The translations under genes were made by a program, and so were the position numbers. This document shows, one piece after another, positions 2-6,457 of a DNA stretch of 64,000 bases; within the stretch, counting starts at the first letter, position 1; each line of letters opens with the position of its first letter. The notes below the pieces were generated by a model. It ran no database searches and had not been told where the DNA came from. It saw nothing but the letters and a program-made list of their open reading frames with translations. Source of the stretch: Planctomycetaceae bacterium (GTDB lineage Bacteria > Planctomycetota > Planctomycetia > Planctomycetales > Planctomycetaceae); contig JAGQQG010000002.1 of assembly GCA_020426325.1 (NCBI GenBank), forward strand, positions 1 through 64,000, written 5' to 3'.

Positions 2-325
2 AGCATGCCCTTGCACCAGGTGGCTGCCGAAGTCGGCGTGCGGCACTACGCCCCCATCCGTCAGCAACGGGTGGGGCGACGACAGCAACCGCGCCGGAAG
101 CTGCTGCTCAAACTCTTGTCCAGCGACGTGGGCCAAAGCTTTTTGAAACAGCGTGACGCCATCGAACGCTGGTACGCCCAGATGAGCAACATCTCCTGCG
201 GCTACAAAGGCCTGCCCAACTGGGTCCGCCGGCAACCCCGTGTCGAACGCTGGATGTGGGGCAAGATCCTGATCTATCACGCCTACAAACTTCAACTTAC
301 AAAACACCCCTCACCAAAAGCTTGA
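2..325 (+). CDS. Transposase, C-terminal part (5' end outside window)
   Basis: The frame is open to the window edge, so only the last 107 or so codons are visible; the ATG at 5 is probably internal. The visible protein is basic and ends with a block (ERWYAQMSN ... GLPNWVRR ... VERWMWGKILIYHA) that resembles the last part of the catalytic domain in small DDE transposases, where the glutamate of the DDE triad lies in an R-x-x-I-E-R-like context. The family call is from memory of such C-termini and no terminal inverted repeat can be checked because the left end is missing. It could be a complete element or a remnant. The next gene, a sigma factor on the opposite strand, ends about 140 bp downstream. 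Confidence 0.6.
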   Translation, partial: SMPLHQVAAEVGVRHYAPIRQQRVGRRQQPRRKLLLKLLSSDVGQSFLKQRDAIERWYAQMSNISCGYKGLPNWVRRQPRVERWMWGKILIYHAYKLQLTKHPSPKA

Positions 326-1343: not shown

Positions 1344-1667
1344 TCACAGGGTGGTCTGCTGGTGTAAGACCAGCGAGGCCCACATCGCGGCCGGTGCCTG
1401 TCCGGCTGCCGACATCTGGCAGCAGGACATGCCGGGTCGCTGCCGTTGACACCATGTCTCTTGTGAGACTGGTACCGAGACGGGTTCGATTCCCGCTCTG
1501 GGTGTCGTGGCAGTTGGCGTTGTCAGATACGCCACACTTAGCCGTTTCCCCGACGGCTTGGTTCCGGGGAGCGTATGATGGGCGCGACCGACGACGAGAC
1601 CCGCATCAATGCCATTGCCGGCAAAGGTGTTGATCACAGAGTCGTTGATTTGGTCGAACTTCAACAT
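1344..1667 (-). CDS. Possible small protein of 107 residues, unrecognised
   Basis: The ATG at 1667 is preceded by a strong ribosome binding site (GGAGGA, about 7 bases away), and the first 35 or so codons (MLKFDQINDSVINTFAGNGI...) have coding-like base use. From about residue 50 the frame runs antisense to the hairpin-rich tRNA-like region at 1356-1558 and reads like a typical spurious antisense-tRNA peptide. It may be a short real gene whose 3' part has been replaced, or a translated leader. No domain is recognised. The neighbours on the same strand are the beta-propeller gene upstream and the sigma factor downstream. Confidence 0.3.
   Translation of the reverse strand: MLKFDQINDSVINTFAGNGIDAGLVVGRAHHTLPGTKPSGKRLSVAYLTTPTATTPRAGIEPVSVPVSQETWCQRQRPGMSCCQMSAAGQAPAAMWASLVLHQQTTL
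1356..1558 (+). other. Hairpin-rich, tRNA-like non-coding region
   Basis: A nearly continuous series of inverted repeats fills this stretch: 1358-1374 (5-bp stem, 7-base loop), 1390-1406 (5 bp, 7-base loop), 1405-1423 (6 bp, 7-base loop), an outer stem 1440-1453 with 1501-1513 enclosing 1456-1469 (5 bp) and 1481-1495 (4 bp around TTCGATT), then 1516-1533 and 1540-1558. The TTCGATT loop closed by CGGG/CCCG matches a tRNA T-arm on the plus strand, and the 1358 hairpin resembles a D-arm. I could not fold a canonical cloverleaf with a 7-bp acceptor stem, so these may be decayed tRNA genes or another structured RNA. Confidence 0.5.
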
Positions 1668-2174
1668 TGCTCTTCCTCCGGAAGGAGCCCGATCATCGGG
1701 CTCGTACAGTTTGGACTGGCGAGGATGCGGTCCTCGTGGACCGGAGTTGTCATCCGTCGTCAGGTCCCGGGGCAACTCAACAGACTGAAAAAGTCGCCGG
1801 TCGGGGAAACTCAAATTGAAAAAGGGGATGCTCTCAACAGATTGCTGGGAGACAGTTTAGGGAAACATGCAGCGACGTTCGGGGGGTGTTGGCCCCGGCA
1901 AAACGCAGCCTGTACTTTCCTCTACGTCATGTGACCCGCATTCTATGGAGAAGGTTCGGAGAATCCCAGAAAATCTTCCAGGATTTTTGAGATCGTCGCT
2001 TGGGATTCGAGAAATCAGCCCAAACTCGCTTCAGGGACAGAAGTTAGGCTGCCTCGGCGAGACCCTGATGTGTCGAATGAGCACTCTGGGTGTACCTCAA
2101 TCCGGCGTCGACGATGGAGAATTCGTTCATTCGCAGATGAAAACTCACCCAAATCGGTGTCCAAGCGAGACTGG
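1668..2174. other. About 500 bp with no supported gene
   Basis: Open frames here (for example 1867-2337 plus) are biased in composition, lack a ribosome binding site and resemble nothing known. No strong terminator was found after the beta-propeller gene that ends at 2175. Confidence 0.5.
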
Positions 2175-4475
2175 CTATCGACGAGCAAAGAACCGCAAGG
2201 GCCCCAGAGCACGTCCGCTTCGTCGAAGTAAGGGAGAGAAGAGGCTGCTCCCCAACCGGTCGCTAACCAGATCGCTCACTTTTGAGGTCAGCGAACTTGT
2301 TGTTTTCGAGACGATTTGTGAGGTCTCATTCAATTGACTGGGAATTGACTCAATCGCAGATTGAACGTCTGTTGACTGCGTCCGTCTGATGGCTTCTTTC
2401 GAGTTCACCGGGCCAATGACGCCGATCTGCCCGATGGCGCGGACGAGGTTCTGATGAATCAAGCCACCGACAGACGAGAGGATGGGCAGGTTATGCTTGG
2501 GACGATGCAGGAACGGTCCGTAGAAAGGATGTCGGGGATGTTTGACTGGGGGTAACTCATGATTTGTTGGAGCTTCCGGAGGTCCTATCAAAGGTGTCTT
2601 CACGGGAGTGGCGATCCCGATGAACTTGACGATGCCGTCGCCACCAGTGATCGCGCCCGGTGTTGACTCCAACGACCAGTTGTTGGCAACCCACACATTG
2701 CCTGACTGGTCGATTTGCAGCGCCGTCACGTGCTGGAGTGACTTGTTCGAGAAGTTGGCCAGAACATTCCCGCGTCCTTCTTCGCTTCCATCAACGACCG
2801 AAATAAACGGCGGATCCATCAACCGTCCCTCGATGGGGGGATTGGAGAAACTCTGAATCCAGATGCGATCACTGCCATCGACCGCTAATCCCCACTGACG
2901 TGATGGTTCAGCAAGCGGCTCTTTGGTTGCCAGGTAGTCCGTCACTTCGAACGTCTCGCCGTTGATGAAGGTCACATCGCTGGACTCAAAGTTTGCGACC
3001 CAGGCGTTGCCCTGACTGTCGATGGCGATGGTTCGGGGAGATGCAAAGTCCGAGTAAGGACGCAGCGGGAAATTGTCAATCGGCTTTGTGAGCGCGTCGG
3101 AATCAACGGATTGGACTTTGACAACCCGACGGCCTTTCAGTTCCATCACGACCACTCCGCGACCGCCAGCGATCGGGGAGTTCGCCGCCCAGACTCGACC
3201 TTGCCCGTCGACTGCCACGCTGAATGGTTTGTAAACGTCTTGTGTGAAGGTACGCCGCTGCCAGGGGTTTCCTTTGAAGTAGACCGTGACGGAACCGGGA
3301 TCGCTGCTGTCAGCTGGATCTCCCATATTGGCGATCCAGAGATTCCCGTCCTGATCAAAGGCCATTCCCATCGGATGGTCGAGCCCGCTGAGTAAGCCGG
3401 GAACGAAGAACGCTTTTCGACCGTTCGGGTAGAACTTGGTAATGCCTCCTTCGTCGAAATTGGAAATCCAGATGCTGCCATCGGGCGCAATGGCCGTGCC
3501 ATAGCCGGAACCGTTGACGCCCAATGCATAGATCGGGCTGCCCAGAATCGGTTCTCCTGCCGGATTCAACACGCTGATTTGCCGACCAGGAAGCGACGGC
3601 AATTCACCGGGACCGTACACTCCCTCGATGTAGAGGAAGTTGTTGTTGGTCCACATGTTTCCTTGTGCATCGAAGGCCATTCTTCCGGGAGCATTGAATC
3701 CCCCTTCAGTGAGATGCAATGCGATAATCCAATCCGACGGGATTTCCGCCAAAGTGGGGCCATAGGTGGTGTTCAACTTGGAGAGTTCATCAAGCTTGAT
3801 GTTGTCGAGAGTCGTCGCATTCTGAGAAATGTTATGGAGTGCTTCAGCCGTGTTGGTCGGAGTCATTCCCCCTGTTGGAGTGGTCAGGCTGAAGAACAGG
3901 TCAGCAGTCAGTCCTGTCGAATCAGTTGCAACGGCAGCGACCATGTTGGCCAGTGAATTCATCTTTGCCAGCGCTTGTGTACTGGTCGGGTTCTCGAGGA
4001 GCGTTGTTCCGTTATTCTCGTTTGAGACCAGTTCAGCAGGTGTCCCGGTCTCGGGATCGTACAAGGTGAAAGCAGTTGCCACTGCGTTATTCAGGCCGGG
4101 CGAGGGACCCGAGATGTCTGTCCCATTCAGGAACTGTGCTAATGCGTTGACCGTTCCCACGGTGGTGAATTCATTGATCGTGACATCGTGATTGAGATTG
4201 CCCCCCACCTCTCCGGCAATGCTCATCAACACGACATCTCTACTCGACGCAGGCCCATCGGAGGCCACGAGGTAAAGAAACGATCCACGGTCGGCGTCAG
4301 GATAGCTGACGTCAAAGTGACCGAACTCATCAGCCTGATCCTGGCCGATCATCGTTGTGCCGTTTGAGTCTGCTTCGTACAGCGACACCAACGCATCCCC
4401 GTAGCCACTCCCGCCAGCAGTCACGACTCCGGAAATTGCCCCCGCGAGCAGTGTTCGTTTTTCCAGGGATTCCAA
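2175..4475 (-). CDS. Secreted NHL/Vgb-like beta-propeller protein
   Basis: A 766-residue protein from a TTG at 4475. The start of the visible protein, ESLEKRTLLAG, matches the LExRxLLA-type motif at the N-terminus of many large planctomycete exported proteins. Residues about 10-60 look like a carboxypeptidase-regulatory-type beta sandwich. Residues about 240-640 contain repeated blades of the form AFDxxGNxWxxN (GMAFDQDGNLWIANMGD, VAVDGQGRVWAANS, IAIDSQGNAWVANFES), typical of NHL or streptogramin-lyase-like propellers. The C-terminal 130 residues are proline-, serine- and arginine-rich with no recognised domain. No SD precedes the TTG, and the frame continues upstream through a basic RRRRSRDW stretch without an ATG. 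An ATG lies at 4566 in another frame, suggesting a start problem or a frameshift. Substrate unknown. Confidence 0.75.
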   Translation of the reverse strand: MESLEKRTLLAGAISGVVTAGGSGYGDALVSLYEADSNGTTMIGQDQADEFGHFDVSYPDADRGSFLYLVASDGPASSRDVVLMSIAGEVGGNLNHDVTINEFTTVGTVNALAQFLNGTDISGPSPGLNNAVATAFTLYDPETGTPAELVSNENNGTTLLENPTSTQALAKMNSLANMVAAVATDSTGLTADLFFSLTTPTGGMTPTNTAEALHNISQNATTLDNIKLDELSKLNTTYGPTLAEIPSDWIIALHLTEGGFNAPGRMAFDAQGNMWTNNNFLYIEGVYGPGELPSLPGRQISVLNPAGEPILGSPIYALGVNGSGYGTAIAPDGSIWISNFDEGGITKFYPNGRKAFFVPGLLSGLDHPMGMAFDQDGNLWIANMGDPADSSDPGSVTVYFKGNPWQRRTFTQDVYKPFSVAVDGQGRVWAANSPIAGGRGVVVMELKGRRVVKVQSVDSDALTKPIDNFPLRPYSDFASPRTIAIDSQGNAWVANFESSDVTFINGETFEVTDYLATKEPLAEPSRQWGLAVDGSDRIWIQSFSNPPIEGRLMDPPFISVVDGSEEGRGNVLANFSNKSLQHVTALQIDQSGNVWVANNWSLESTPGAITGGDGIVKFIGIATPVKTPLIGPPEAPTNHELPPVKHPRHPFYGPFLHRPKHNLPILSSVGGLIHQNLVRAIGQIGVIGPVNSKEAIRRTQSTDVQSAIESIPSQLNETSQIVSKTTSSLTSKVSDLVSDRLGSSLFSPLLRRSGRALGPLRFFARR

Positions 4476-5164: not shown

Positions 5165-6457
5165 ATGCGATTCCACGGACTGCTTTTCGCTGCTTTCGGC
5201 CTGTGTTTCATGCTTGGTTGTCCCCAGGAGCCACCACCGGCGGCCCCTCCGGGAGGGACGGATGCCCCTGCCGGCGAGACACCTGCCGCTGAGACTGCCG
5301 CTCCTGCTCCCGAGGAACCCGCTGCCCCGGCGGCAGATCCGGACGATGAGGCCTCCGTCGCGGGACTGGAGGAGTTCGGGGTCCAGCTCAAACGGAACAA
5401 GGCGGGGAACATCGTTGCGATCGACGTGGAAGGAGCCCGCAGTTTTGGTGATGAGCAGGTTCCACTTCTCAAGGGGTTGCCTGCTCTTGAGGATGTCGAC
5501 ATCAGCATGTCACAAGTCAGCAACGATGGGCTGGCCATCCTGAAGGACATCGAGACCATCAAGTCGCTTAAACTGCGTCGCTGTGCGAATGTCGATGACG
5601 AAGGAATTGCATACCTCGTGAGCATGCCTCACCTGGAGAAGCTGATTCTGCTCTACAACTCGAACAGCATCTCGGACAATGCACTGGAATCCATTGGCAA
5701 AATCACGACCTTGAAAGTGTTGGACCTGCGAGGCTGTGTCCGCATCAGCGATGTGGGGCTCGCTCACCTGTCGGGATTGACGAATCTTGTTGACCTGCGA
5801 TTGAAGACGTCGGGCGTCAGCGATGAGGGGGTTGCCCATCTCGAACCGCTCAAGAAGCTCAGGGTGCTCCATCTCGAACAGACTCGTGTGACCGGGGAAG
5901 GCCTGGCTGCTTTAAGCGGGATGACCGACCTCACGGAACTCAACCTCTACAACACGCAGGTCGATGACGAGGGGTTGTCACATCTGTCTGAGATGTCCAA
6001 GTTGAAGTGGCTCCGTCTGCGAGACACCGCAACGCTGGGAACCGGTCTGGCCTCTCTTGAGAAATCACGTGACTCGCTGCAGACGCTCGACATGAGCGAG
6101 TCGTTCGTCGACGACAGCGGGTTGGCTGAGATCGCGAAGTTTCCGAATCTTGAATCGCTCAACCTGTGGGCGGGCACATTCACTGGGGACGGTCTGAATC
6201 AGATCACCTCGCTGACAAAGCTGAGGGAACTCAACCTGCAAAGCACCGATGTGAGTGACGACACGCTCGACATCGTGGCACAGCTGTCGTCCTTGGAAAA
6301 CCTGAACCTGATGGAGACCCGCATCTCCAGTGCGGGTCTTGCGAAGCTGCATGGACTGAAGAACCTGAAGTCCATCAATCTTGCGAACACGGATGTAGAC
6401 GACGCGGGCATTACAGCACTCAAAGAGGCGATCCCGAATCTCGACGTGCAAACTTAG
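5165..6457 (+). CDS. Leucine-rich-repeat lipoprotein
   Basis: A 430-residue protein with a signal peptide ending in a lipobox (MLGC, Cys19), then a Pro/Ala/Glu-rich linker to about residue 60. The rest is a run of about 12 leucine-rich repeats of roughly 24 residues (L-xx-L-x-L-xx-T-x-V-s-D-e-G-L-a-x-L), the AMN1/cysteine-containing-like subtype common in planctomycetes. The repeats form a curved solenoid used for protein binding, so this is likely a membrane-anchored periplasmic or surface binding protein; the partner is unknown. The start is the only one placing a signal peptide in frame. The next gene starts 58 bp downstream in the same direction and may be co-transcribed. Confidence 0.85.
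   Translation: MRFHGLLFAAFGLCFMLGCPQEPPPAAPPGGTDAPAGETPAAETAAPAPEEPAAPAADPDDEASVAGLEEFGVQLKRNKAGNIVAIDVEGARSFGDEQVPLLKGLPALEDVDISMSQVSNDGLAILKDIETIKSLKLRRCANVDDEGIAYLVSMPHLEKLILLYNSNSISDNALESIGKITTLKVLDLRGCVRISDVGLAHLSGLTNLVDLRLKTSGVSDEGVAHLEPLKKLRVLHLEQTRVTGEGLAALSGMTDLTELNLYNTQVDDEGLSHLSEMSKLKWLRLRDTATLGTGLASLEKSRDSLQTLDMSESFVDDSGLAEIAKFPNLESLNLWAGTFTGDGLNQITSLTKLRELNLQSTDVSDDTLDIVAQLSSLENLNLMETRISSAGLAKLHGLKNLKSINLANTDVDDAGITALKEAIPNLDVQT

Follow-up and report, generated by a model that had tools for sequence, protein, structure and literature searches.

A small, apparently overlooked protein gene with hairpin-rich coding RNA upstream of an ECF sigma factor gene in Planctomycetaceae

What is encoded by the closely spaced hairpins near the start of a Planctomycetaceae contig? 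The DNA analysed, referred to below as the window, comprised the opening 64 kb of contig C219, which is 129 kb long and belongs to a 6.85-Mb assembly with a completeness of 95.6%. The initial annotation had described a run of tRNA-like hairpins there, in a region said to be without protein genes. Reading of the sequence confirmed a run of stem-loops at approximately 1356-1558, including CGGG-TTCGATT-CCCG (1481-1495) and an outer stem formed by 1440-1453 with 1501-1513. The segment 1340-1560 folded with z scores of -4.2 on the plus strand and -3.3 on the minus strand, and none of 200 dinucleotide shuffles was as stable. The folding background consisted of 256 segments of 200 nt each from the same 64 kb. 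The segments that begin at 1351, 1361 and 1401 had stability ranks of 2, 5 and 4 of 256 on the minus strand, with plus-strand ranks of 12, 16 and 25. Two further segments, beginning at 1451 and 1501, were ordinary (minus-strand ranks 42 and 32, plus-strand ranks 39 and 22). The hairpins over 1351-1600 are real and stand above chance. Among the 256 segments, folding scored highest in two stretches, around 7794 and 9044.

The description of the region as free of protein genes could not be upheld. A conserved ORF (smORF; 107 aa plus stop, MLKFDQIN...WASLVLHQQTTL) spans 1344-1667 on the minus strand and holds the reported hairpin run; it begins with ATG, and a Shine-Dalgarno site, GGAGG, was read directly at 1675-1679 (minus). 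The genus sample (g1) consisted of the window and four other genomes, whose named records are Planctomycetaceae MAGs, these five being the g1 genomes found. The smORF was recovered in all four other genomes searched, at 61-88% identity and with indels in multiples of three, and its frame, start and Shine-Dalgarno site were kept in 5/5 genus members. Substitution rates were determined for 18 disjoint pairs, several of them intrageneric and one with a dS of 0; dN/dS was 0.14-0.95 and below 1 in 17/17 defined pairs, and the third codon position was the most changed in 14 of the 18. Retention of the frame in relatives, together with a dN/dS below 1, marks the smORF as protein-coding, with the reservation that in the genus one plus-strand frame had a dN/dS of 0.45-0.65 against 0.49-0.59 for the smORF, but contained 2-3 stops. 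The dS of the smORF was lower than that of the sigma factor gene described below in 10/10 genus pairs, and amino-acid change was higher in the smORF. The window protein matched no Pfam or NCBIfam family up to an E value of 1, and no known anti-sigma domain within the same searches. A PDB profile search returned a single match at E 0.14, which was disregarded. The AlphaFold model had a pLDDT of 44.7, which is weak evidence because only five sequences were available to it.

Downstream of the smORF, at 465-1016 on the minus strand, lies the gene of a 183-aa ECF sigma factor, recognised by Pfam (Sigma70_r2, 9.3e-12; Sigma70_r4, 8e-08) and above the cut-off of the NCBIfam sigma70-ECF superfamily. 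A hairpin seen in its sequence and by local folding, CCCTCC-GAA-GGAGGG (1024-1038, minus), would sequester the sigma gene's Shine-Dalgarno site; this arrangement is not uniform in the family. Upstream of the smORF, approximately 290 nt before its start, is an ECF-type promoter-like site, CGAACCTT...GGTCA (GAACC-N17-GTC; 1932-1958, minus), and preceding the Shine-Dalgarno site is a leader hairpin, GAGCCCG-ATGAT-CGGGCTC (1685-1703, minus). The unit is probably ordered as promoter-like site, hairpin with Shine-Dalgarno site, smORF and ECF sigma gene. That the smORF is a coding gene and stands first in an ECF sigma unit is held with high confidence, and it is apparently an overlooked small protein gene before a stress-type ECF sigma gene in planctomycetes. 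A 766-aa protein with NHL and propeller repeats is encoded at 2175-4475 (minus), between the unit and an LRR gene at 5165-6457; in the relative L109, no other large ORF separates the smORF from the LRR gene upstream of it. AtpZ-like and LRR genes were considered as conserved neighbours and rejected, being found in 1/30 and 6/30 loci, respectively, within 1.5-kb flanks.

The ECF sigma gene was matched in 121 of 150 family genomes, and upstream DNA was taken for 90 of those 121 loci. A related, much diverged smORF was located upstream of the sigma gene at 85/90 loci by iterated profile and at 86/90 with the last profile, recruitment by iterated HMM being a procedure that keeps the best-scoring frame at each locus and is open to overfitting. 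The four loci that yielded no ORF were L030, L054 and L088, with 0, 330 and 428 nt of upstream DNA, and L108. Lengths over the 86 loci were 91-197 residues (median 107), and the stop codon lay 184-733 nt before the sigma start, which is long for translational coupling. Asparagine was enriched near the start (13.6% in codons 2-25 vs 1.2% in the rest). GGAGG, AGGAG or GAGGT preceded the ATG in 67/86 loci, a count favoured by the preference for Shine-Dalgarno sites with which starts were picked. Among the 42 of the 86 smORFs compared, many had a block resembling GKRL as well as the motif PAxAWASLV at the C-terminus, and the codons of this motif vary between loci. The nucleotide motif GGGAAACGGCTA (1539-1550, minus), which holds the GKRL codons, recurs across genera; the lysine codon was AAA at 30/30 GK sites listed, a count that includes several sites per genus and is uncorrected for codon usage. 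The string GGGAAACGGCT was considered as the -35 element of an internal promoter and rejected, no fixed -10 element being visible after it by eye. In one relative, L061, the smORF (434-796, minus) contains long inverted and direct repeats within the coding sequence, as if produced by template switching.

The search was extended to the class, in which profile A6 matched 35 of 198 genomes, 29 of them in the family and 6 outside it at E 0.002-0.009. Twenty loci of other families were fetched, and a sigma start was located in 17 (none in L175, L177 or L178). Among those 17, five iterated-profile matches were obtained at E 2e-4 to 1.3e-3, profile A6 gave none below 0.006, and GAACC-N16-18-GTC occurred within 1300 nt in 13/17, the last being a raw count taken without shuffling. 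These sequence matches are no more than suggestive of smORF counterparts in the corresponding position in further families of the class.

The choice of the promoter-like pattern followed a word count in the loci used to test it. GAACC-N16-18-GTC was present no more than 450 nt upstream of the smORF in 46/49 loci chosen for diversity and in 82/86 loci overall; in 100 shuffles the mean was 1.5 and the maximum 5 of 49. The spacer was exactly N17 in 43/48 sites, and the typical GAACC-N17-GTC site was about 200 nt before the smORF. The same blocks occurred in 1/49 stretches between smORF and sigma gene (a smaller target, mean 345 nt), in 2/49 ORFs and in 4/49 opposite-strand upstream regions. A conserved GAACC-N17-GTC site upstream, the feature looked for in an ECF sigma unit, was found. 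GAAC and GTC blocks are a signature of ECF promoters, and this signature together with the conserved place suggests that the site is used by the downstream sigma factor. Strict forms of the pattern were used to look for a regulon in the genome itself and in six relatives, and none was found: the genome held three sites, one at the smORF-sigma unit and two inside ORFs on other contigs, which were taken as chance, and a variant pattern matched one of the six relatives, at the smORF-sigma unit.

Folding of the coding RNA was compared with that of codon-preserving shuffles. The five genus smORFs gave sense-strand z scores of -2.5, -4.0, -3.0, -3.3 and -2.0. For 44 smORFs chosen from the 86 for diversity, the genus of the window being left out, the mean z was -3.13 and 32/44 fell below -2, as compared with a mean of -1.15 for 22 sigma genes (6/22 below -2) and of -0.49 for 60 coding windows drawn from the same 64 kb (6/60 below -2). 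The excess peaked at nt 120-340 of the smORF (40 loci), where the hairpins had been seen at the outset. The antisense strand gave a mean z of -2.58, with 29/44 below -2, and a consensus energy of -162.8 against -149.4 for the sense strand. The folding excess being alike on both strands, the strand was assigned from the gene and not from the folding.

Within the genus, the 72 named pairs of the structure were formed in 94.7% of cells, the structure and its pair counts both deriving from the same five sequences. Double changes were found in eight named pairs, five of them inside the smORF, against 0-2 when slid and a mean of 4.2 when shuffled; eight was reached by 1/500 shuffles. Pair types showed no excess (12 vs 12.2). 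The individual hairpins, all on the minus strand, follow one another through and beyond the ORF. The one once read as a T-arm (1475-1502) keeps its stem, mostly still paired, and not its loop letters, and GTCTC-ACAA-GAGAC (1456-1469) is paired in 84% of cells with two double-change pairs. One such pair was found in each of TGTCC.TGCTGCC...GGCAGC.GGACA (1399-1429), GCTGGT-CTTAC-ACCAGC near the smORF stop (1358-1374), GCGACA...TGTCGC after the stop (1298-1328) and the former T-arm. A further hairpin runs from the codons of VVGRAH to beyond GKRL (1518-1596, modelled as 1513-1597), contains GGGAAACGGCTA, and was paired in 95.3% of cells without a double change.

A covariance model of the 1513-1597 hairpin, built from the genus, was run over 75 sources and matched the window, the five genus loci, L042 (E 0.0012) and L060 (E 0.014). 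Outside the genus it was recognised in 2/69 sources only, both belonging to genus g30, where 11 and 10 of the 17 outer pairs were formed in L042 and L060 and a separate fold gave a like hairpin. The remaining matches were near or below chance, some lying inside other smORFs (L065, L028, L034, L037, L091). Since it was recognised in g30, at least this hairpin outlives the genus; most genera have other hairpins, or none visible to the 1513-1597 model.

The leader hairpin was followed more widely. It has two double-change pairs in the genus, and a variant, CTGCGG...CCGCAG, was present in many other loci. Over 72 family sequences 82.8% of cells were paired against no more than 54.3% when slid, covariation was 0.193 against no more than 0.119, and double-change cells numbered 19 against no more than 10. 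In the same 72 sequences the number of double-change pairs showed no excess and pair types stood at 10 vs 9.7, and RNAalifold placed no pairs at the leader hairpin in the gapped family alignment. Both a Shine-Dalgarno site and a structured leader, as sought in a translated regulatory leader ORF, were present. Terminator-like sites in 1000-2200 numbered 2, with 1.3 expected.

The whole is probably best explained by a gene for a small protein with a structured leader, placed in an autoregulated ECF operon. A mechanism in which the smORF influences the sigma gene as a translated structured leader is offered more tentatively. The sigma factor would drive its own two-gene unit from the ECF-type site, and the smORF would be translated efficiently. 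Ribosomes crossing the hairpin-rich coding RNA could then set how much transcript reaches the sigma gene, or how much of it opens for translation of the sigma gene, whose own Shine-Dalgarno site lies in a paired stretch in the window. Selection would also bear on the peptide, which may in turn influence the sigma factor. A bolder extension, which we regard as speculative and rather unlikely as it stands, is that two roles keep a fast-evolving ORF in place, that of a peptide gene and that of hairpin-rich coding RNA, so that translation through this ORF tunes an autoregulated ECF sigma factor, perhaps as a class-wide planctomycete control element in which the sequence largely drifts and the start site, the hairpin content and the ECF promoter are held.

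Several other explanations were weighed against the translated leader gene. The hairpins had been proposed to be decayed tandem tRNAs or an attachment-site remnant next to a transposase. The ORF so named lies at 5-325 (plus), is cut by the contig start, and had no match in Pfam or NCBIfam. This proposal draws on a single T-arm-like stem-loop in the window, and it is contradicted by the other results: ARAGORN in standard mode returned 0 genes in the window and no cloverleaf, Rfam gave 0 matches at gathering score in the 64 kb (at E up to 10, three matches fell in 900-2200, all far under their gathering scores), the loop letters TTCGATT occurred in 0/4 genus relatives, and a related coding sequence occupies the position in 86/90 family loci. 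The tRNA reading fails because both searches were empty and the loop letters were missing from all four relatives, and the probability left to it or to an attachment site beside ORF 5-325 is negligible. Phage records contained no DNA similar to the region. A third proposal, an unknown structured RNA, held in part: the folding is real and covaries within the genus, but its place is in a leader gene that codes for protein, within an ECF sigma unit. That the RNA is purely non-coding, on either strand, and the ORF accidental would agree with the strong folding on both strands, with the dS below that of the sigma gene and with the plus-strand frame of similar dN/dS; it is nevertheless very improbable, given a frame kept in 5/5 genomes with indels in threes, a dN/dS below 1 in every one of the 17 defined pairs, the Shine-Dalgarno site and a related ORF in 86/90 loci.

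The main rival to the translated structured leader is action of the peptide in trans, the smORF being an independent small protein, for example a feedback inhibitor or partner of the sigma factor, and its folding a by-product or of use only in stabilising the mRNA. The dN/dS below 1, the N- and C-terminal motifs held at the amino-acid level and the constant place before the sigma gene (86/90 loci) are all compatible with it. Such a protein would leave the folding beyond codon content and the low synonymous change unexplained; neither Pfam nor NCBIfam yielded a match up to E 1, no PDB match was better than E 0.14, and the pLDDT of 44.7 (weak evidence, from five sequences) points the same way. 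We consider it possible but rather doubtful. Less probable again is a mutational origin, by which template switching at inverted repeats lying close together would generate functionless hairpins in a gene that evolves fast. Stems that fold about equally on both strands, a modelled hairpin recognisable in one other genus only, and the long repeats, inverted and direct, that L061 carries within its ORF are in its favour. Against it, the excess was seen in 32/44 diverse smORFs vs 6/60 coding windows, z scores below -2 on either strand were only slightly commoner in intergenic than in coding windows of the 64 kb (12% of 25 vs 6% of 439), and double changes preserve pairs. The preferred reading remained a gene that combines small protein and structured leader in an autoregulated ECF operon.

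Such a unit resembles autoregulated ECF sigma factor operons in its Sigma70_r2 and r4 protein and in the GAACC and GTC blocks conserved before the unit. It differs from them in having a partner gene without a match to any known anti-sigma family, this partner being a fast-evolving, hairpin-rich small ORF that separates the sigma gene from the promoter-like site. Control of a downstream gene by a translated leader ORF is exemplified by leader peptides and by arrest peptides such as SecM or MifM. The smORF is like these in being an ORF of about 100 aa that precedes a regulatory gene and has a Shine-Dalgarno site, in being poorly conserved save for short motifs, and in having a structured mRNA; unlike them, it lies 184-733 nt from the gene it precedes.

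Planctomycete ECF factors with non-standard regulation have been described (PMC8103513, PMC8999054). In the portions of these papers drawn on here, the groups have N-terminal extensions or are linked to phosphorylation, and those portions, in contrast to the present locus, mention no small leader ORF. Among the open-literature matches listed, titles and abstract openings contained no leader gene of the smORF kind. According to one passage of PMC8103513, no planctomycete ECF factor with an N-terminal extension has been examined by experiment, and on that account ECF control in the phylum is an open field.

For the family, the finding means that an ECF factor matched in 121 of 150 genomes is accompanied by a conserved promoter-like site and by a small gene unseen by Pfam and NCBIfam models. 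If the folded coding RNA matters, selection would hold hairpin content more than sequence and, if this is true, such selection would escape sequence-based RNA searches.
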